From Dechloromonas sp. CZR5 (GTDB lineage: Bacteria; Pseudomonadota; Gammaproteobacteria; Burkholderiales; Rhodocyclaceae): a stretch of 64,000 bases of DNA. The translations under genes and the position numbers were made by a program. Location of the stretch: the NCBI RefSeq assembly GCF_008711155.1, contig NZ_VUYQ01000004.1, positions 147,627-211,626 of the forward strand, read 5' to 3'. A model generated the notes under the pieces. That model saw only the letters and a list, made by a program, of their open reading frames with translations, had not been told where the DNA came from and made no database searches. Shown here one piece after another: positions 4,565-16,777 of the stretch; the stretch's first letter is position 1, and each line of letters opens with the position of its first letter.

Positions 4565-5839
<1,275 letters not shown>

Positions 5840-6057
5840 TGCGTTTTCTCCACGGGACGGGCACCGGCCCGGTGCCAAAAATTCGAACCCGCAATTTTAG
5901 CAGAGCTATCGCAGCCGACTGCGCCTGGGGATGCCTTTTCAAGGCGGATGTTTCGCCCTGCCTGAAGGAGCTGCACGCGCAGGCGGCGACGAGCGCGATG
6001 GGAAGCGGTGGGTGTTGTAAATATGCAACTGATGTTGCAAAAAAGCCTAATGTGTCC

Positions 6058-6086
6058 TTGACGCGGATGGCGGCTGTCATGACAAT
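6058..6086 (+). promoter_or_regulatory. Sigma-70-like promoter of the rtcB leader
   Basis: TTGACG (6058-6063), a 17-bp spacer, then GACAAT (6081-6086). Five of six and four of six bases match the consensus with ideal spacing. A transcript would start near 6093, 40 bases before the leader ORF. I looked for, but did not find, the TGGCAC-N5-TTGC element expected if rtcB were sigma-54/RtcR driven as in enterobacteria. Confidence 0.55.
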
Positions 6087-6132
6087 GGCCATTCGTCGTA
6101 TCGCAACCCATTCTTTTCCAGGAGGAAAAACC

Positions 6133-6165
6133 ATGTCTGCATCATTCGAGGTTTCCACGCGCTAA
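6133..6165 (+). CDS. Ten-codon leader peptide ORF upstream of rtcB
   Basis: ATG to TAA encodes MSASFEVSTR. An almost perfect Shine-Dalgarno sequence (AGGAGG, 6120-6125) lies seven bases before the ATG, far better than that of rtcB itself. It is followed by a hairpin and then an intrinsic terminator, an arrangement resembling a leader/attenuator. Alternatively the transcript 6093-6260 is a small RNA. No run of a single amino-acid codon is present that would name an attenuation signal. Translation is inferred from the ribosome site only. Confidence 0.45.
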   Translation: MSASFEVSTR

Positions 6166-6182
6166 ACCGCAGGCATGCTTTT

Positions 6183-6212
6183 GCCCGGAGCGCGTTTCAT
6201 GCGAATCCGGGC
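6183..6212 (+). other. Leader RNA hairpin 1
   Basis: GCCCGGA (6183-6189) pairs with TCCGGGC (6206-6212), and CGC/GCG pair inside. It lies between the leader ORF stop and the terminator and could compete with or stabilise neighbouring structures. Confidence 0.5.
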
Positions 6213-6223
6213 CGGGAAGATCC

Positions 6224-6259
6224 AAAACCCCCAGGCCATCGCCGGGGGTTTTTGTTTTT
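6224..6259 (+). terminator. Intrinsic terminator between leader ORF and rtcB
   Basis: CCCCC pairs with GGGGG, and after a bulged A, GGC pairs with GCC around a CATC loop; TTTTTGTTTTT follows. It is a strong plus-strand terminator 86 bases before the rtcB ATG, so rtcB expression would require read-through, antitermination or a second promoter. Confidence 0.8.
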
Positions 6260-6267
6260 CCGAACCC

Positions 6268-6321
6268 GCCGACCATAGGTCGGCCACGCCCGGATTCCTT
6301 CATGGCGGCCTTGCTGCCGCC
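6268..6321 (+). other. Leader RNA hairpins 2 and 3 before rtcB
   Basis: Two further perfect inverted repeats follow the terminator: GCCGACC/GGTCGGC (6268-6284, 3-base loop) and GGCGGC/GCCGCC (6304-6321, 6-base loop). Both end before the rtcB ribosome site AAGGA (6334-6338). Their regular spacing suggests a structured 5' region. Confidence 0.5.
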
Positions 6322-6344
6322 GGCAAGTCATTCAAGGAATCAAA

Positions 6345-7543
6345 ATGGGCATTCAATTGGAGCTCAACAAGGCGCGTGTTCCCGTCAAGATATGGACGCG
6401 CGACATCGAAGCCGAAGCGATGCAGCAACTGCTCAACGTCGCTTCGCTTCCCATCGTGCATGGCCACATCGCCGCAATGCCCGACGTACACGCCGGTATC
6501 GGCGCCACTGTCGGCAGCGTCATTCCGACGCACCGGGCGATCATTCCCGCCGCTGTCGGCGTCGATATCGGCTGCGGCATGAACGCCGTGCGTACATCGC
6601 TGACGTCGGCGCAACTGCCGGACAATCTGCGCGGCTTGCGCCTGGCCATCGAGGCCGCCGTGCCGCTCGGCTTCAACCAGCACGCCGCCAGCCGCATGCG
6701 CGGCAGCGAGCTGCAACGGCAAGGGCGGGCGCTCAACGACCGGCTTGACCGCATCGTCGGTCGACATCCGGGCCTGATGAAGATGCAGCGCCGTTTCAAC
6801 GAGACCTGGCTGTGCCAGATCGGCACGCTGGGCGGCGGCAACCACTTCATCGAACTATGCCTGGACGAGACGCAGCAGGTGTGGATCATGCTGCACTCCG
6901 GTTCGCGCGGCATCGGCAATGTCATCGGCCGCTATTTCATCGCTGCCGCGCAGAAGGATATGCGCCGCCATCAGGTGCGCCTGCCGGATGCCGATCTGGC
7001 GTATTTCAGCGAAGGCTCGGCGTTGTTCGACGATTATGTCGAGGCCGTCGAGTGGGCGCAGGATTACGCGCTGCTCAACCGCCGGCGCATGCTGGCGGCG
7101 GTGGTCGAGGCGATCAAGCCTTTGCTGCCCGGCTTCAGGCTGGTGGATGAGGCGGTCGATTGCCATCACAACTACGTCAGCCGCGAATCGCATTTCGGCG
7201 AAAACCTCTTCATCACCCGCAAGGGGGCGATTTCGGCACGCGAAGGCGAGCTGGGCATCGTGCCCGGCAGCATGGGGGCCAAGTCCTACATCGTGCGCGG
7301 CCTGGGCAATGCGCAATCGTATTGTTCCTGCTCGCACGGCGCCGGCCGACGCATGAGCCGCAGCGCCGCTACAGCCGCTTCGATCTCGAAGCGCAGACGG
7401 CGGGTATCGAATGCCGCAAGGACGGCGGCGTGGTCGACGAACTGCCTGCCGCCTACAAGGATATCGATGCCGTGATGGACAACCAGCGCGATCTGGTCGA
7501 GGTCGTCCATACCTTGCGCCAAGTGCTGTGCGTGAAGGGGTGA
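6345..7543 (+). pseudogene. rtcB: RtcB-family RNA ligase with single-base frameshift
   Basis: RtcB joins RNA 2',3'-cyclic phosphate (or 3'-phosphate) and 5'-OH ends using GTP and Mn2+. The reading frame from the ATG at 6345 shows the family motifs: HGHIAAMPDVHAGIGATVGS, GVDIGCGMNAV (metal-binding Asp/Cys), GTLGGGNHFIEL, and CSCSHGAGRRMSR, with the guanylylated His at codon 331. After codon 342 (near 7368-7370) the frame breaks. The true C-terminus (TAGIECRKDGGVVDELPAAY, then the YKDIDAVM region, ending RQVLCVKG) continues in another frame to the stop at 7543. Inserting one base would restore 399 residues, close to E. coli RtcB. As read, translation instead ends at 7475 and loses the nucleotide-contacting C-terminus. 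It could be real decay or a sequence error; the downstream genes remain intact and tightly spaced. Confidence 0.88.
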
Positions 7544-7546
7544 GCC

Positions 7547-7750
7547 ATGACCAAGAAAGCCAGACTCACCGCGCCGCTGATCCTTCCGCAAAGCCGCCCG
7601 CGCAACCCCGTGCTCGTCCCCGGCCTCACACGCCGCGCCGGGCCGCACGGGGCCACGCGCAAAGCGACCCGCCACAACATGCGCCAACGCACCCGGCAAC
7701 TGCTCGATGAGCTATTGACGGGCGAGGTGGCGGAATTCGAGATCGATTGA
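7547..7750 (+). CDS. Small basic protein of the rtcB operon
   Basis: 67 residues, starting 3 bp after the rtcB stop, so it is almost certainly co-transcribed. The N-terminal two thirds are rich in Arg, Pro, His and Thr (RRAGPHGATRKATRHNMRQR), and the last fifteen residues are acidic (LLTGEVAEFEID). No membrane segment, cysteines or known motif. The charge pattern fits an RNA-binding or adaptor peptide, but the function is unknown. Position directly after an RNA ligase is the only contextual clue. Confidence 0.65.
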   Translation: MTKKARLTAPLILPQSRPRNPVLVPGLTRRAGPHGATRKATRHNMRQRTRQLLDELLTGEVAEFEID

Positions 7751-7907
7751 CACACCCGCCGGGGCCATTCCGCCCCGCTTTACCCCAGGGCCAGCGCTTC
7801 CCCGGAGCACCGCCCACCTTTGATTCAGGAGAAAAACATGCATGTACCCGCTGCCTTCGTATCGACACCTTCCGACCTTCCGTTTACCGCCTGTCGAGGA
7901 GTCCCGC

Positions 7908-8882
7908 ATGGACCACGAAAGCGCCCACGAAGTCATCGCCTGCCTGGGCGATGAGCGCAAGATTTTTCACTACTACCGCGACCGCTACAGTCTCGGCCTG
8001 CTGCGCCAATTGGCCGGCCGGCAAGACAACGGGGAGCTGCCGCTCGCCCGCTTGCGGCAATCCCCTTACGCCGGCCTGCTACAAAAACCCCGCCTGCGCC
8101 GGATGCTCGCCTCCCTCGGCCGGCAGGCCCTGAGCGAGGCTTTCATCGCCGGCCACGATCACGACCCGCAGCAGGAAGCCTTCGTGCTCGGCATCGACCA
8201 TTGGGGCGGCGGCAGCTATCGCGCCCGCCGCCGCCAGCAGACCTCGCGTCCCGGCTGCAACCTGGTCTTGCAACTCAACCTGAGCCGTCGCCACGACGCC
8301 AACTACGCCCGCCTGGGCTGTGCGCCGGGGCTATTCAATTACCGGGGGCATCCGGTATCCGGCAAGCGCAACACGCTGGCCTGGGCGCGCATCGATCTCG
8401 ATTGGGCGAGCAATACCGCCCTGATCGAGGAAATCCAGTCCGACTGGATACGCGACGTTGCCTGGCTGGCCGAGCGCTTGCAGAACAAAGTGCGGCGAGG
8501 GGAGCGGCTCGATTCCCCCGCCAAGCTCTACCGCCTCGATTGCTCCATACGGACAGCGCTCGACTATTGCCGCCAGATCCTCGCCACCTACCGGCCGATC
8601 TGGGACGAAGCCATGCTTTGGGCCGCCATCGGCTTCATTCGCGACGAACTGGGGCTGGCGCATATCTACTACCACAGCGAGCAAAGCGGCCGCCTGCTCA
8701 AGCGCATCGCCGGCAGTTCGCCGCCGCGCGCCCTCTACAGCGACCTGCCGCGCCGATTCTGCTTCACGGCAACCCGGACGCTTCCGGAATTCCTGCTGCG
8801 CGAACCGCAGGTGAACAAGGCATTGAAACACCATCCCGACCTGAGCTTGTTCCGGTTGGCCATGGAATCACCGCTGGGGTGA
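7908..8882 (+). CDS. EIQSDW-motif protein related to phage polyvalent-protein domain
   Basis: 324 residues from the ATG at 7908, chosen over the in-frame ATG at 7842 because GAGGAG (7896-7902) precedes it. The central part reads HPVSGKRNTLAWARIDLD, then IEEIQSDW, and later WDEAMLWAAIGFIRDELG and AHIYYHSEQSGRLLKRI. From memory this order (N-x-L-A-x-x-R, EEIQSDW, then W/E helix and a G-x-x-x-I strand) matches a domain found in very large phage and mobile-element polyvalent proteins, where its activity is not established. Here it is a compact stand-alone protein in an RNA-ligase operon. The N-terminal 90 residues are Arg/Leu-rich and helical. No signal peptide or TM segment. Enzymatic function unknown. 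Confidence 0.75.
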   Translation: MDHESAHEVIACLGDERKIFHYYRDRYSLGLLRQLAGRQDNGELPLARLRQSPYAGLLQKPRLRRMLASLGRQALSEAFIAGHDHDPQQEAFVLGIDHWGGGSYRARRRQQTSRPGCNLVLQLNLSRRHDANYARLGCAPGLFNYRGHPVSGKRNTLAWARIDLDWASNTALIEEIQSDWIRDVAWLAERLQNKVRRGERLDSPAKLYRLDCSIRTALDYCRQILATYRPIWDEAMLWAAIGFIRDELGLAHIYYHSEQSGRLLKRIAGSSPPRALYSDLPRRFCFTATRTLPEFLLREPQVNKALKHHPDLSLFRLAMESPLG

Positions 8883-9084
8883 TTGTTTGGCCTCACGGCA
8901 ACCGGTGAAGCCCGCGTTTGATCTGCCTTACCATTCCGGCGATGACTTGCCGCGATGGTGGCGACGCCGGTGGGCCGTAGATGATCTGCTCCAGTCACTA
9001 CGTCGCGTGACGCGCCTCGGGATCGTCCAGGGTTTCGGCCAGCGCTCCCAGCGAGCACGGCGGCGCGCAAATTCTCGATGTCGC

Positions 9085-9522
9085 TTAGCTACCGATATCC
9101 TCGTTCCACAGCGCCGGCCGGCTGGCGATGAAGTCGCGCATCAGGGCGACGCATTCCTCGCTCTGCAGGACATCGACGCGAACGCCGCGGCTGCGCAGCA
9201 GTTCTTCTTCGCCCATGAAGGTCTGGTTTTCGCCGACGACGATCCGGGGAATGCCGTAGAGCAGGATGGCGCCGCTGCACATGGAGCAAGGGGATAGGGT
9301 GGTGTACAGCACGCAGTCGCGGTAGACGCTGGCCGGCTGGCGGCCTGCCTGTTCCAGGGCATCCATTTCGCCATGCAGGATGGCGCTGCCTTGCTGTACG
9401 CGCCGGTTGTGGCCGCGGCCGATGATGCGGCCCCGATGCACGATGACGGAGCCGATGGGGATGCCGCCTTCGGCCAGGCCCTGACGGGCTTCGGCAATGG
9501 CGGCCTGCATGAATTCGTCCAT
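9085..9522 (-). CDS. Cytosine deaminase of the yeast (FCY1) type
   Basis: 145 residues of the zinc-dependent cytidine/deoxycytidylate deaminase fold. The zinc site is HGEMDALE (His and catalytic Glu) plus SPCSMCSG (two Cys). Several stretches resemble yeast Fcy1 rather than TadA or GuaD: GRGHNRR, YTTLSPCSMC, the following AILLYGIPRIVVGEN, and the C-terminal ALWNEDIGS, which parallels the WFEDIGE end of Fcy1. Predicted reaction: cytosine to uracil plus ammonia (pyrimidine salvage). It follows creC by 27 bp with a GAGG ribosome site, so it is probably in the creB-MOSC-creC operon. A broader nucleobase specificity is possible. Confidence 0.85.
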   Translation of the reverse strand: MDEFMQAAIAEARQGLAEGGIPIGSVIVHRGRIIGRGHNRRVQQGSAILHGEMDALEQAGRQPASVYRDCVLYTTLSPCSMCSGAILLYGIPRIVVGENQTFMGEEELLRSRGVRVDVLQSEECVALMRDFIASRPALWNEDIGS

Positions 9523-12215: not shown

Positions 12216-13394
12216 TCAGCCTTCCGCCCGGGCGGTAACGATGCCTTGCTGGGCGGCCCAGAGCCCGACATCTTCGCGGCGGATGGCGGCGGCCATCAGA
12301 CCGGGGAACTGGTCGGGCGTGCAGGCAAAGGAAGGGACGCCGAGGGCGGCGAGCTTACAGGCGAGGCGATGGTCGTAGGCCGGCGCGCCTTCGTCGCTGA
12401 GCGCCAGCAGGGTGATCACCTGGACGCCGGATTGGACGAGTTCGCTGGCTCTCTGCAGGAGGTTCTGCTCGACGCCGCCTTCGTAGAGGTCGGAGATCAG
12501 CACCATGATGGTGTTGCGCGGGTCGCGAACCAGGGACTGGCAATAGCCGATGGCCCGGTTGATGTCGGTGCCGCCGCCGAGTTGCACGCCGAACAGCACC
12601 TCGACCGGGTCGCTGAGTTGTTCGGTGAGGTCGACGACGGCGGTGTCGAAGACCACCATGTGCGTCTTGACGGCGGGCAGCGATGCCATGACCGCGCCAA
12701 AAATACTCGAATAGACAACGGAGGCGGCCATCGAGCCGCTCTGGTCGATGCACAGGATGACTTCGCGCTGGGTCCGCCGGCTTTTGCGGCCATAGCCGAT
12801 CAGGGTTTCCGGGACGATGCTGCGGTGGCTTTCCTGCCAGTGGCGGAGATTGGCGCGGATGGTGCGATGCCAGTCGATTTCGGCGTGCCGAGGCCGGCGG
12901 TTGCGGACCGCGCGGTTGAGGGCGCCGGTGACGGCGCTACGCATCGGTTCCTCCAGTTTCTTCATCAGCGCATCGACCACTTTGCTCACCACGCTGCGGG
13001 CGGTGTCCCGGGTTTTCGCCGGAATCACGCCGCGCAAGGACATCAGCGTGGCGACCAGGTGTACGTCGGGCTGTACGGCTTCGAGCATTTCCGGTTGAAA
13101 GAGCATGCTCTTCAGATCGAGTCGCTCGAAGGCATCCTTCTGCATGACCTGGACGACGGAGGCCGGGAAATAGCGGCGGATATCGCCCAGCCAGCGGGCG
13201 ACGCGCGGCGACGAGGCGCCGCTGCCGCCGCGCAGGCCGCCCGCTTCGTCGGCGTCGTAGAGGGCGCTCAAGGCTTCGTCGATGCGCAGGTCGTCACCGG
13301 CCAGCAAGCCGCTGCAGGATGTCTCGGCCGGTTCGCCGAGGACCAGGCGCCAGCGCCGCTTGCGGGCGTCGTCGGCGGCATTGTTTTCGTTCAT
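12216..13394 (-). CDS. VWA-domain protein of the SWIM/MoxR operon
   Basis: 392 residues. The start MNENNAADDARKRRWRLVLG overlaps the preceding DUF5682 stop (ATGA). The N-terminal half is helical. The von Willebrand factor A domain begins near residue 200 with an intact MIDAS: CIDQSGSMA (DxSxS), then a Thr in GGGTDINRA and an Asp in ISDLYEGG. Such proteins act as metal-dependent adaptors presenting substrates to MoxR AAA+ ATPases. It is the last gene of the five-gene operon and likely partners the ATPase at 15698-16777. The substrate is unknown. Confidence 0.9.
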   Translation of the reverse strand: MNENNAADDARKRRWRLVLGEPAETSCSGLLAGDDLRIDEALSALYDADEAGGLRGGSGASSPRVARWLGDIRRYFPASVVQVMQKDAFERLDLKSMLFQPEMLEAVQPDVHLVATLMSLRGVIPAKTRDTARSVVSKVVDALMKKLEEPMRSAVTGALNRAVRNRRPRHAEIDWHRTIRANLRHWQESHRSIVPETLIGYGRKSRRTQREVILCIDQSGSMAASVVYSSIFGAVMASLPAVKTHMVVFDTAVVDLTEQLSDPVEVLFGVQLGGGTDINRAIGYCQSLVRDPRNTIMVLISDLYEGGVEQNLLQRASELVQSGVQVITLLALSDEGAPAYDHRLACKLAALGVPSFACTPDQFPGLMAAAIRREDVGLWAAQQGIVTARAEG

Positions 13395-15691
13395 GACTCG
13401 ATTCCCAGCAACAGACGCAGCAGCGGCAAGGGTTTTTCGGCGCGTGTAGTGTCCCAATCGGCGAGGATTCCCTGTGGCGCGGCGTTGCGCCGGCCGGCCC
13501 GTTCGCCGAGCTGGCGCCGCTCCGGCGCGCTGAAGGCGGCGAAGGCGCGGCGCAGCAGCGGAAGTTCGCGGGTGAAGCCGTCTTCGCTCAGCGCACTCAG
13601 CCAGCCGTCGACCATGCCCCACAACTGCGGGTCGTGCAGCAGCACCATGCCGCTTTTGTTGAGAAAGCCTTCGAGCCAGGCGGCGGCCGGCCCTGGTTCG
13701 TTGCCGACCGATAGGGCCTGGCTCATGGCCTGCGCGGTCTGCTCGGGGGCGACTTGCTGTTCGTCGAAGAGCAGGCGGTTGGCCAGGCCGCAGATCAGGC
13801 CGTGGCAACTGCCGAGTTGGGCCAGTCGGCGCAGGGCCTGCCACCATTCGTCCAGCAGGTTCTGGCGGGCGAGCAGGCGTACCGCCTGATGCATGGCGAC
13901 GAGATGCTCGCGCATCGCCTCGGCGGCTGCGTCGTCGAGCGCCGCACAGGCGCCGGGCAGGCCGATGGCGGCGCGCGGCACGAGACGATCGAGCAAGTGT
14001 TCGACCATGCCGGCGTCGGTTCGGCGGACGTTGCCGTAGCGGGCGACGTTGACCAGCGGCGGCACGGCAGCCATCAGTTGTTGCGCGTCGCTGGCGACGG
14101 CGGCGAGATTTTCCAGCGCTTGCGACACCGGGGCGATGGCTTCTTCCAGATCGGATAGCAGAACCTGATTCACCAGTTCCGAGAGATCGGGCAACTGGTC
14201 GGCCGCCAGCGCCCGGTCGATGGCCCGGTTAGCGGCAGCTTGTCGCACGTCATTGCCCCAGCGGCTGGCATCGATGACGGCGATGACCAGTTCCGGTGTC
14301 CATTGCAGCGTCCATATTTCGTGGAAACTACCCTTGGCGCTGCGCCCCGCCTTGTTCAGGCTGCCCCAGTCGATATCGAGCAGCCGCAGACGGTGCAATA
14401 AATGGCTGCGTGCCAGATCGTTGCCTTGTCGCAGGTCGAGGTCGAGCGTTTTTTGCGTGGCCTCCGCCTTCAAGCGCAGGCTTTTCTGCTGTTGCGCGAG
14501 GTCGCGCAGCAACGGGACGGCCGGCGCCGCTTCCGGCGTGCTGCCGAGTCGGTCGCCGACGGTCATCTGGCGCCGGATAAGCTGCATCGGCGCCTCGTCG
14601 CCCATGCAGACGACGGCGCGCAAGGCGGCGTCGAGTTCGTCGAGTCCGGGTTGCGGGCGTTCGCGCAGGGCGGCCAGGGTTTCGGCCAAACGGACGGCTT
14701 CGATGATGTGGGCTGACGAGCAGTCCAGGCCGTTGTCGCGGAACAGCCGGGCGGCTCGTGCCAGCCAGCCGACGGCCCGGTCGCCTTCTTGCCGCCACAG
14801 GTATTCGTACCAGCCGGGCGAGGCCACGCCGGCGCCATAGCCGCTGGCAAAGCTGAGATTGTGGTAGGACCATGGGACCCAGGTCGTGGCGACCTTGATC
14901 TTCGGCAGGCCCTTGAGCAGTTCGTTGTCGGCCCTGGCCGGCGGCAGGTCGCTCAGGGCCGGTAGGTGCCAGGCGCCGCAGACCACGGCGATGCGCTGGA
15001 AACCTTCTTTTTCAGCCTGGCGCATGCATTTGCGCATATGCGCCTCGCGCAAAGCTTCGCGTTGTTCGATCCGGGCGCCGCGTTGTCGGGCCGGTGCTTC
15101 GCTGCGCACGCTGGTCATCGCCTCGCGGATGGCGGCGAACAGTTCCAGGCTGTCGCCACGCTCCTCGACCATGTGGTTCCACCAGGTTTCGCCGTCGCCA
15201 TAACCGGCGGCGCGGCCCAGCCAGTCGAGCGGGTCGTCGTTCGGGCCGGCCTCGTCGATGGCAGCTTCCGGCGGGCTTTCGATTTCGTTTTCCGGGGGCG
15301 GTGCCGTCGCCTCGTCGGCAGGCGCTTCACCGCTCAACGCGGCTTCGTCGGGCCGGCTGAGCGCAAACCGGTGGGCGGCCGGCAGATCGATGAAACGGGT
15401 GGGAATCTGCCGTGCTAGCGCGAAACGCAGCGCATTCCATTCAGGCGAGAAGGTGGCGAAGGGGTAGAAGACCGCTTCGCGGGCATCGTCAGGGTTGTAG
15501 ACGAGCAGGGCGACCGGCGGTACCAGGCCTTCGTCCAGCATCAAGGCCAGCATTTCCTCGCTGTCAGGCGGGCCTTCGACGAGCAGGCAATCGGGTTGCA
15601 GTTCGGCGAGGGCGCGCAGCAGGCTACGGGCGCAGCCCGGCCCGTGATGGCGGATGCCGAACAGGTGGAAAGGGGAGGCTGCGCCGGCCAT
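13391..15691 (-). CDS. DUF5682 family protein
   Basis: 766 residues. It opens with FGIRHHGPGCARSLLRAL and LLVEGPPDSEEMLALM, the hallmark of DUF5682. The HHGPG and EGP elements resemble the TraB/Tiki/EreA-type superfamily in which paired His/Glu residues form an active site; that relation is inferred. A low-complexity acidic/proline stretch lies near residues 120-150 (EAPADEATAPPPENEIESPP). A second motif region contains VVCGAWHLPALSDLP, fitting the GxxH element of that superfamily. The C-terminal half is a long helical region. Six bp separate it from the MoxR gene; it overlaps VWA by four bases. Function unknown. Confidence 0.88.
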   Translation of the reverse strand: MAGAASPFHLFGIRHHGPGCARSLLRALAELQPDCLLVEGPPDSEEMLALMLDEGLVPPVALLVYNPDDAREAVFYPFATFSPEWNALRFALARQIPTRFIDLPAAHRFALSRPDEAALSGEAPADEATAPPPENEIESPPEAAIDEAGPNDDPLDWLGRAAGYGDGETWWNHMVEERGDSLELFAAIREAMTSVRSEAPARQRGARIEQREALREAHMRKCMRQAEKEGFQRIAVVCGAWHLPALSDLPPARADNELLKGLPKIKVATTWVPWSYHNLSFASGYGAGVASPGWYEYLWRQEGDRAVGWLARAARLFRDNGLDCSSAHIIEAVRLAETLAALRERPQPGLDELDAALRAVVCMGDEAPMQLIRRQMTVGDRLGSTPEAAPAVPLLRDLAQQQKSLRLKAEATQKTLDLDLRQGNDLARSHLLHRLRLLDIDWGSLNKAGRSAKGSFHEIWTLQWTPELVIAVIDASRWGNDVRQAAANRAIDRALAADQLPDLSELVNQVLLSDLEEAIAPVSQALENLAAVASDAQQLMAAVPPLVNVARYGNVRRTDAGMVEHLLDRLVPRAAIGLPGACAALDDAAAEAMREHLVAMHQAVRLLARQNLLDEWWQALRRLAQLGSCHGLICGLANRLLFDEQQVAPEQTAQAMSQALSVGNEPGPAAAWLEGFLNKSGMVLLHDPQLWGMVDGWLSALSEDGFTRELPLLRRAFAAFSAPERRQLGERAGRRNAAPQGILADWDTTRAEKPLPLLRLLLGIES

Positions 15692-15697
15692 GGCGGC

Positions 15698-16777
15698 TCA
15701 GTTCCGTTCCCGGCAGGCGCGATAGAGATCCTTCCAGTCGCTGCGTTCCTTCATGACCGTTTCCTGGTATTCGCGCCAGACTACTTCGTCTTGCACGGGG
15801 TCCTTGACGATGGCGCCGACCAGGCTGGCGGCGATGTCGGCGGCGCGCAACTCGCCGTCCCCGAAATGGCCGGCCAGGGCCATGCCGCTGTTGATGACCG
15901 AAATCGCTTCGGCGGTGCTCAGCGTGGCGCTGGAGGTCTTGAGTTTGGTCTTGCCGTCTTCGGTTTGGCCATTGCGCAGTTCGCGGAAAATCTGCACGAC
16001 CCGGCGGACTTCCTTGAGCGCCGGCGGTTCGCCCGGCAACTGCAGGGCTCGTCCGAGCTCGGCGACGCGCTTGCCGACGATGCTGACCTCCTCTTCCTCG
16101 CTCGCCGGCACGGGCAGGATGACGGTATTGAAGCGGCGCTTCAGGGCGCTCGACAATTCGTTGATGCCCTTGTCCCGGTTGTTGGCCGTGGCGATGACGT
16201 TGAAGCCGCGCACCGCCTGGGTTTCGATGCCGAGCTCCGGCACCGGCAGCGATTTTTCGGAAAGGATGGTGATCAGGGTGTCCTGCACGTCGGCCGGAAT
16301 CCGCGTCAGTTCTTCGACGCGGGCGGTTTTACCGCCTTCCATGGCGCGCATCAGCGGGCTGGCTACAAGGGCCGCTTTCGACGGTCCCTTGGCCAGCAGT
16401 TCGGCGTAGTTCCAGCCGTAGCGCAACTGTTCCTCGCTGGTGCCGGCCGTGCCCTGGATGAGCAGCGTCGAATCGCCGCTGACGGCGGCTGCCAGGTGTT
16501 CGGACACCCACGACTTGGCCGTGCCCGGCACGCCGAAAAGGAGCAGGGCGCGATCGGTGGCCAACGTGGCAATGGCGATTTCCATCAGGCGCCGGTTGCC
16601 GATGTACTTGGCGCTGACCTGGAAACCGTTGGCCAGCGTGCAGCCCATCAAGTATTCGGCGACGGCCCAGGGCGAGAGTGCCCAGTTTTCCGGTCGTTCG
16701 CGGGTATCCGCCTTCTTCAGTTCTTCCAGTTCCTCGGCGAATTGGTGTTCGGCGTGCTGACGCAGGATTTGGCTCAT
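15698..16777 (-). CDS. MoxR-type AAA+ ATPase
   Basis: 359 residues. Walker A is GVPGTAKS (around residue 82); the sensor-1 strand is FNVIATANNRDKG and the arginine-finger region is SSALKRRFN. The Walker B position reads TARVEELTRIPADVQDTL, where the usual acidic pair is present as EE. The C-terminal lid is helical. MoxR proteins are chaperone-like remodelling ATPases that work with VWA partners, and the operon supplies one. Starts 11 bp after the DUF5691 gene. No signal or membrane segment, so it is cytoplasmic. Confidence 0.92.
   Translation of the reverse strand: MSQILRQHAEHQFAEELEELKKADTRERPENWALSPWAVAEYLMGCTLANGFQVSAKYIGNRRLMEIAIATLATDRALLLFGVPGTAKSWVSEHLAAAVSGDSTLLIQGTAGTSEEQLRYGWNYAELLAKGPSKAALVASPLMRAMEGGKTARVEELTRIPADVQDTLITILSEKSLPVPELGIETQAVRGFNVIATANNRDKGINELSSALKRRFNTVILPVPASEEEEVSIVGKRVAELGRALQLPGEPPALKEVRRVVQIFRELRNGQTEDGKTKLKTSSATLSTAEAISVINSGMALAGHFGDGELRAADIAASLVGAIVKDPVQDEVVWREYQETVMKERSDWKDLYRACRERN

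Follow-up and report, generated by a model that had tools for sequence, protein, structure and literature searches.

A conserved gene team of RtcB, a small basic protein and a protein of predicted GNAT-like fold in Dechloromonas sp. CZR5, and its possible role in RNA repair

In a 64,000-nucleotide stretch of the genome of Dechloromonas sp. CZR5 (contig NZ_VUYQ01000004.1, positions 147,627 to 211,626; hereafter the window), a gene for the RNA ligase RtcB is followed by genes for a 67-residue basic protein (hereafter the small protein) and a 324-residue protein with an EEIQSDW block (hereafter EIQ). The gene order is real and conserved beyond chance, and in the window's clade the genes stand behind a conserved leader with a short open reading frame (ORF) and an intrinsic terminator. 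We suggest, giving the proposal an even chance of being right, that this is an RNA-repair operon switched by stalled ribosomes, in which a leader attenuator precedes RtcB, the small basic protein, and EIQ, and the latter two would act on the damaged ribosome or its RNA. The features, with positions counted from the first nucleotide of the window, are as follows.

6133-6165, + strand: leader ORF of 10 codons (MSASFEVSTR), ending CGC-stop, with a purine-rich Shine-Dalgarno (SD) sequence upstream
6183-6212, + strand: leader hairpin A:B (GCCCGGA / GAATCCGGGC), from alignment A4/A5
6224-6259, + strand: intrinsic terminator between leader ORF and rtcB, kept in 7/7 aligned leaders and in L290 and L291
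6289-6341, + strand: element C (CCCGGATTC) and the rtcB SD stretch D (GGAATC)
6345-7543, + strand: rtcB RNA ligase gene, frameshifted (Pfam PF01139 in two frames, E 1e-106 and 5.1e-16)
7547-7750, + strand: 67-residue basic protein, family alignment A2, core R-N-P...R-[RK]-G-G-x-H-x-K-S...R
7908-8882, + strand: 324-residue EIQ, family alignment A1, with an N-terminal helical part, a predicted GNAT-like fold, and EEIQSDW; an in-frame start further upstream at 7842 is possible

The original prediction, made from the sequence of positions 6058 to 8882, named these three genes in this order, and the ORFs and the EEIQSDW block are found where it placed them. Its span also takes in the conserved leader (6133-6341), which it left undescribed.

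Linkage of EIQ and the small protein to RtcB

A scan of GTDB genomes identifies 68 loci encoding relatives of EIQ, and among 150 genomes of the family, EIQ is held by six, the window's genome included. We examined 73 EIQ loci (L004-L076), which collapse to 69 clusters at 95% identity, and aligned 65 sequences (A1). Nineteen columns are invariant, among them H148, W159, R161, D163, E174, E175, Q177, D179, W180, Y220, K265, and Y277, and S178 and R182 are nearly invariant at the turn that holds the motif. The alignment of the small protein (A2) has 31 sequences; H34 in its core is invariant and net charge is positive in 29 of the members. The window's own member has a net charge of +7 and an acidic C-terminal end, which bears out its earlier description as basic/acidic. 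Short ORFs in the vicinity of EIQ, searched iteratively by profile, include 33 relatives of the small protein, and a six-frame profile search of EIQ loci yields matches in 40 loci.

Scans of the window's EIQ and small protein against Pfam, NCBIfam, PHROGs, and PADLOC return no credible family. The same is true of Pfam scans of the aligned EIQ proteins, of Pfam and NCBIfam scans of the aligned small proteins, and of PDB sequence searches with both proteins, which give weak matches at most. By tblastn, neither EIQ nor the small protein of locus L028 has a match in phage and plasmid records, and of 600 viral-contig stretches that fit the A1 pattern, none was confirmed as a relative of EIQ. Judged from sequence, EIQ and the small protein are genuine families that lack a Pfam or NCBIfam model and are associated with RtcB.

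When ORFs of the 73 loci are clustered all against all, EIQ and RtcB (40/73) are conspicuous. Two more clusters are large (39 and 30 loci, with median lengths of 142 and 133 residues) and are taken to be reverse or alternative frames of the EIQ and RtcB genes. Among the 69 non-redundant EIQ clusters, both RtcB and the small gene are present in 31, and other neighbors encode PrfH (3), RlaP (3), RbfA-like (4), and Band_7 (8) proteins. The original prediction was to be abandoned if homologs of the two genes were found mostly away from rtcB, or if the arrangement with rtcB was confined to this genome. Instead, rtcB is present in 31 of 35 loci with the small gene and in 37 of 69 with EIQ (the counts take in L019, where a 105-nt remnant of rtcB is left, and L029, where rtcB has a deletion), and the tabulated neighborhoods reveal a gene team that is conserved in other genomes. 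Type strains of Thiothrix are among those that have these genes. In each of the 41 loci whose examined flank matches RtcB, the nearest match is less than 1 kb from EIQ and on the same strand; the largest spacings (806-914 nt, three loci) belong to RtcB2-PrfH-EIQ arrays. EIQ-linked RtcB proteins are 43-90% identical to that of the window, and RtcB2 is also seen in EIQ arrays.

The order of the genes varies. The small gene is ahead of EIQ in the window's clade and behind EIQ in many gammaproteobacteria, and in EIQ-first loci (L043, L044, L047, L051, and L053) it is behind RtcB; in L020, the match to the small protein is ∼4.6 kb from EIQ. Because the small gene accompanies RtcB and EIQ in several orders, a shared function is better evidenced than it would be by one fixed order. 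In six genomes (G182, G255, G285, G340, G402, and G421), the small gene is beside rtcB and EIQ is not adjacent. On a quick tree of EIQ with 26 open forks, linkage to RtcB changes seven times; it is absent from an alphaproteobacterial group and from another group of mixed phyla.

Co-occurrence across genomes follows the same pattern. An unseeded class-level sample comprises 369 genomes, with that of the window among them; EIQ is in 13, the small protein in 27, and RtcB in 128, with RtcB present in 12 of the 13 EIQ genomes. After removal of the window's genome, EIQ co-occurs with RtcB (11/12; Fisher p 5e-5), the small protein with RtcB (22/26; p 7e-8), and, most tightly, the small protein with EIQ (11/12 EIQ genomes; p 2.5e-13), in tests that ignore kinship. 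EIQ adjoins RtcB in 9 of the 13 class genomes (G000, G213, G324, G348, G379, G414, G437, G486, and G531), and the small gene is no more than 300 nt away from RtcB or EIQ in 14 of 27, from coordinates read by eye. RtcB is in 69 of the 150 family genomes and in all six that have EIQ, where it is adjacent in five.

The leader upstream of rtcB

Known means of regulating or assisting RtcB appear to be missing from the genome of the window. Searches for RtcA (PF01137) and RtcR (PF06956) returned no matches, with an E. coli control positive for both, and a search for archease (PF01951) also returned none, with 6 of 14 controls positive. The best scores for PrfH (TIGR03072) are 127.3 and 106.3 bits against a cut-off of 166.65, and both are on other contigs. 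The original prediction was thus right that the arrangement is neither rtcBA nor RtcB2-PrfH in this genome, and these absences leave room for control of the leader type. Twenty-one upstream stretches searched for the sigma-54 pattern gave no full match (best partial, 9/11), and an Rfam search of positions 5800-9200 gave matches only far under family thresholds.

The window and six relatives share a leader consisting of an SD sequence, short ORF that ends CGC-stop, hairpin A:B, terminator, element C, and the rtcB SD (D). In all nine leaders read in the clade (window, L011-L015, L017, L290, and L291), the leader ORF has 10-12 codons and ends with [T/S/M]-R-stop, and in 7/7 aligned leaders, hairpin A:B begins 17-18 nt past the leader stop. 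Element C is invariant in the seven, and L015 has a single base change in D. L290 and L291 retain the leader peptide (MPVTTEEVLSR and MPAANHKEHTTR), and in L291 the hairpin sequence is different by eye. A signal specific to one tRNA is not favored, because leaders of other clades lack the terminal Arg.

Folding predictions suggest how such a leader may operate. In the predicted resting fold, a C:D stem hides the rtcB SD, and B:C is an alternative pairing of 10 bp. Leader folding is stronger than that of shuffled sequences (z of -5.41 for the window and -4.42 for L014). The predicted unpaired probability of the SD is 0.00-0.01, and when A is blocked it rises to 0.46 for the window, to 0.42 for L014, and to 0.02-0.19 for the five remaining leaders. 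The RNAalifold covariation term of the leader alignment is only -0.67.

The leader is found with EIQ-linked rtcB genes. A covariance model of it (R1) has four matches of at least 85 bits in the 150 family genomes (G000, G018, G043, and G094), all directly upstream of EIQ-linked rtcB; the next match, at 34.9 bits, is background. Because G000, G043, and G094 contributed to the model (identical EIQ sequences equate G043 with L012 and G094 with L014), G018 (85.8 bits) is the only independent match. Genome G026 has a weak match (26.9 bits) in the correct position. Two of the four genomes, G018 and G094, each have a second rtcB with no EIQ adjacent and no listed R1 match. At most 22 first-look candidates were scored per genome, and the absence of R1 elsewhere is therefore provisional.

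A broader comparison used the 330 nt upstream of rtcB in loci where rtcB is the first gene. Terminators are upstream of 22 of 28 linked rtcB genes, 1 of 17 control rtcB genes, and 11 of 171 other long ORFs of EIQ loci, at a score limit of 23 that was chosen after the test loci had been viewed. A leader ORF followed by a terminator is present in 15/28, 0/17, and 1/171, respectively. Counting the identical pair L069/L279 once gives 21/27 with a terminator and 14/27 with both features. Controls were rtcB genes without EIQ or the small gene, of which 17 of 20 fetched were scored (L306-L308, in which Band_7 or tRNA genes precede rtcB, were excluded). Nine of the 28 test loci belong to the window's clade, and the 171 other ORFs were called mechanically so that some may be false.

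Predicted fold of EIQ and its likeness to phage polyvalent proteins

Structure prediction gives EIQ a GNAT-like fold. The AlphaFold2 model, built from 65 sequences, is confident (predicted local distance difference test score, pLDDT, 92.8; predicted template modeling score, pTM, 0.93), and supplies the structure prediction of 7908-8882 that the original prediction had called for. It has a predicted helical part at residues ∼1-85 and a GNAT-like part at ∼86-322. Among the matches listed by Foldseek against PDB, nearly all are acetyltransferases, with E values that are weak (0.11 at best). A structural aligner likewise lists nearly all GNATs, with a best Z of 8.7 (root-mean-square deviation 3.5 over 127 aligned residues), just above the value of 8 below which the program warns that Z may mean little; one listed match, ornithine decarboxylase antizyme, is not a GNAT. 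The assignment of residues ∼86-322 to this fold, of moderate confidence, is carried by the consistency of the matches.

GNATs hold the pyrophosphate of acetyl-CoA at a strand-helix turn through a Q/R-x-x-G-x-G/A loop. In EIQ, the model places residues E174-W180 where one strand ends and the following helix begins, and the donor turn reads Q-S-D-W-I-R (Q-S-D-W-x-R across the family). Ordinary binding of acetyl-CoA is doubtful because this sequence replaces the donor loop. Thus, EIQ resembles the GNAT superfamily in predicted fold and differs from it at the donor site. We infer from the model that EIQ may be a GNAT-fold transferase or an RNA-binding factor with a modified donor site.

A related motif is common in phages, and the original prediction had remarked on a resemblance to a domain of polyvalent proteins. 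At least 120 stretches in IMG/VR have the pattern EIQ-x-DWHQ, and the frames that hold the listed matches measure 349 to 4073 codons from stop to stop. When the EIQ model is compared with BFVD, the five best viral matches are long phage proteins; the top one is unnamed (E 3.5e-5) and another is named as a large polyvalent protein. Modeled from 44 rows, the phage domain has a middling mean pLDDT of 71.5, higher in its core, and its PDB matches are GNATs (E 4.6e-4, probability 0.99; Z 7.0 at best). With hhalign, EIQ matches the phage profile at 95.2% (P 2.8e-8) and five column shuffles reach 0.4% at most. However, the profile was gathered with the motif as bait, and P is 0.21 once the motif is masked. 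The resemblance is supported by structure, in the site of the motif and the fold, and sequence similarity outside the motif is not significant. The models support a motif at the same strand-helix turn and a similar, GNAT-like fold in both, and common descent over the whole domain is likely. In contrast to EIQ, the phage copies are mostly inside long ORFs, and neither RtcB nor PrfH was matched in the 120 listed stretches. Phage polyvalent proteins are described in Iyer et al. 2017 (PMC5512222), where the motif itself is absent from the portions of article text consulted.

Proposed mechanism, alternatives, and known systems

Genes that adjoin EIQ and rtcB in other strains also point to the repair of RNA. 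Loci L024, L031, and L033 carry RtcB2, PrfH, and EIQ in that order (RF-1 domain E 1.5e-24 or better), and the small protein is absent. One or two genes for RlaP-family nucleotidyltransferases precede this array in L033 (1890-3569) and L031 (2366-3292), and L010 has an RlaP match. With PrfH and RlaP adjoining EIQ, the RNA-repair context proposed in the original prediction is supported in outline. An RbfA-like gene is directly upstream of rtcB in L018, L021-L023, and L028 (L018:192-638, L023:3971-4420, and L028:4279-4683). Pfam scores for RbfA are 32.8, 36.6, and 43.8 bits in L018, L023, and L028, respectively, against a cut-off of 34.7, with L018 below it. Archease had been considered for the gene in these three loci, and Pfam identifies it as RbfA-like instead. 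By its sequence, the RbfA-like protein is a candidate for a repair-specific 30S factor. RbfA binds the 30S subunit near the 3' end of 16S rRNA, where MazF and colicin E3 cut, and with an RbfA-like neighbor the small ribosomal subunit is therefore the likely object of repair. An ORF in L225 that is ArfB-like by eye and adjoins a small-family gene also favors a ribosomal setting.

Other neighbors are recorded as side observations. Transfer RNA genes, single or in arrays (20 in L020, 16 in L307), are upstream of Band_7/RtcB/EIQ genes in L020 (479-4439), L043, L053, L051, L010, L050, L274, L278, L280, L288, and L306-L308; in a few the anticodon is unreadable or a stop anticodon, and these might mimic tRNAs. 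A link between EIQ and tRNA genes was considered and is weak, since tRNA genes adjoin RtcB/Band_7 loci whether or not EIQ is there. The Anabaena repressor TrcR is common to a tRNA operon, rtcB, and a gene for slipin, according to parts of PMC10272220. No tRNA gene was found in the 64-kb window. Elsewhere in the window, at 12216-16777 on the - strand, are three consecutive long ORFs (543, 766, and 359 codons) that by eye resemble a VWA-type protein, a large unknown protein, and a MoxR-type ATPase.

We propose that the operon, one of a widespread type, responds to damage to ribosomes. RtcB joins RNA ends with a 2',3'-cyclic phosphate or 3'-phosphate to ends with a 5'-OH. Damaged or stalled ribosomes would disturb translation of the leader ORF, the leader RNA would refold, and the operon would be expressed once the terminator and the hairpin over the rtcB SD are bypassed. 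RtcB would then reseal cleaved RNA. The small basic protein and EIQ would work on the damaged particle, with the 30S subunit or its 16S rRNA as the likeliest candidate. We infer the inducing signal, the RNA target, and the activities of both proteins. By analogy, the small protein may serve on the ribosome side as PrfH does in RtcB2 operons. The absence of the small protein from loci with PrfH fits such a counterpart, in a small sample of only three loci. If the operon acts in this manner, two conserved families gain a testable role in the repair of RNA or ribosomes. The motif that phage polyvalent proteins often carry is also given a predicted fold and a setting in the cell. A wider possibility, and a distinctly unlikely one, is that the EIQSDW domain defines an unrecognized class of GNAT-fold enzymes with a phosphate- or RNA-facing site where the acetyl-CoA loop would be, which would unite bacterial ribosome rescue, phage-injected protection of translation, and a leader-peptide switch for damage. 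If so, bacteria use the EIQSDW enzyme beside RtcB, with the small protein as ribosome-side factor, to rescue cleaved ribosomes, and tailed phages inject the same enzyme in polyvalent proteins to shield translation from host RNases at entry.

The state of rtcB in the window bears on this proposal. The earlier identification of the gene as rtcB stands, but a single open frame does not: the ORF at 6345-7475 covers positions 1-367 of the Pfam RtcB domain, and a second frame, ending at 7543, covers 359-426. Accordingly, the reported 3-bp spacing to the small gene is correct for the shifted frame and not for the first. Relative to 6/6 aligned relatives, 10 nt are missing between 7371 and 7372, and relatives L010-L014 and L017 keep one open frame. 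The window rtcB is the sole RtcB gene detected in the 4.29-Mb genome and, from its reading frames, is probably inactive. In the close relative G181, whose EIQ (L009) is 97% identical to that of the window, rtcB is behind the same upstream gene and is interrupted by ∼3.86 kb of other sequence, probably a mobile element, with a small-family ORF after the split gene. The insert carries ORFs of 563 and 324 codons from stop to stop (L312, G181:C158:21000-28141). In genome G414 (L029 and L209, contig C174), rtcB has an internal deletion of roughly 125 codons, EIQ and the small gene adjoin it and are open, and a second copy of rtcB is full-length.

Several observations weigh against our proposal. Because rtcB is frameshifted in the window and split in its close relative, EIQ and the small protein may be important even in the absence of RtcB. 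RtcB and the small gene are both missing around 28 of the 69 EIQ clusters within the examined flanks, some of which are short. Class genome G371 has EIQ and no RtcB, and of 33 genomes chosen for an EIQ locus without a complete rtcB, 12 have no RtcB match anywhere; several of these are metagenome-assembled genomes, and that of Ruegeria faecimaris (L068) is not. Predicted accessibility of the rtcB SD after blocking hairpin A reaches only 0.02-0.46. Last, L225 has at 835-1806 an ORF judged ArfB-like by eye (from its GGQ motif and its basic tail), then what is left of rtcB, a short piece, and then a small-family ORF, so that the small protein need not stand in for a release factor, and its candidacy as a replacement is weakened.

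EIQ and the small protein may instead have a function of their own, such as modifying a component of translation, and travel with rtcB without depending on it, a reading that we consider rather unlikely. Their mutual co-occurrence is the tightest of the three pairs, large groups of EIQ are without RtcB, and both genes are kept where rtcB is broken (the window, G181, L019, and L029/G414). Yet the small gene adjoins rtcB without EIQ in the six genomes noted above, linkage to rtcB recurs in many branches of the EIQ tree, and G414 retains an intact copy of rtcB. Moreover, because many of the genomes are draft or metagenome assemblies, broken copies of rtcB may be errors. We regard as highly improbable a reading of the window locus as a decaying or misassembled relic with no present function. 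The genome's only RtcB has a 10-nt frameshift, and rtcB of the close relative has a different lesion, an insertion. But the window's EIQ is open and nearly identical to that of the relative, the small ORF is open, the leader fits its model, and the absence of 10 nt from a single assembly may reflect an error or a variant within the population.

Conversely, EIQ, the small protein, or both could depend on RtcB more closely than we propose, as archease-like activators or chaperones that assist in nucleotide uptake and reloading and do not contact the ribosome. The strict proximity and shared strand in 41/41 loci, the lack of an archease match in the window's genome, and the service to more than one type of RtcB are as expected of such partners. 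We nevertheless regard this as unlikely. EIQ and the small gene are together without a nearby rtcB in L008, L025, L035, and L066 (L066 begins near a contig end and EIQ of L008 is partial), RtcB is unmatched in 12 of the 33 searched genomes with EIQ, and the predicted fold of EIQ is GNAT-like. E. coli RtcB functions without archease.

Comparison with known systems places the operon among RtcB modules while setting it apart from each. No published description of this operon type was found, in a search that did not cover Burroughs and Aravind 2016 (NAR 44:8525), reportedly a catalogue of RNA-repair systems. Like the rtcBA/RtcR operon, the operon would place an RtcB ligase under control of a stress type, but the genome is without matches to RtcA and RtcR and there is no full sigma-54 pattern upstream. 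From RtcB-archease operons, it differs in the missing archease. RtcB2-PrfH (RFH-RtcB) modules also pair an RNA ligase with a ribosome-side factor, as described in parts of PMC9223846 and in section 2.4 of PMC6514570. Relatives L024, L031, and L033 contain this module with EIQ in the array, whereas the window RtcB is only ∼26% identical to RtcB2 of L024. Unnamed charged accessory proteins are mentioned in the same parts of PMC6514570, and we do not equate them with the small protein.

In gene anatomy, the published counterpart of this locus is PA5471.1-armZ-prfH of Pseudomonas aeruginosa, as it is presented in passages of PMC12057347. There, impaired translation of the PA5471.1 leader is proposed to let transcription enter armZ (PA5471) after exposure to ribosome-targeting antibiotics; ArmZ is RtcB-like and described as an anti-repressor of MexZ, and the adjoining PA5470 (prfH) acts on stalled ribosomes. 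At both loci, the RtcB-like gene comes after a short leader ORF and one or more predicted terminators. However, the ligase of the window is of the ordinary RtcB type and is partnered by the small protein and EIQ rather than PrfH, and induction under ribosome impairment is known for the Pseudomonas operon, whereas the likeness of the window locus is one of gene anatomy. Given the leader-terminator arrangement upstream of many rtcB genes, ribosome-sensed attenuation, proposed for one Pseudomonas operon, may recur as a means of controlling RtcB where RtcR is missing.

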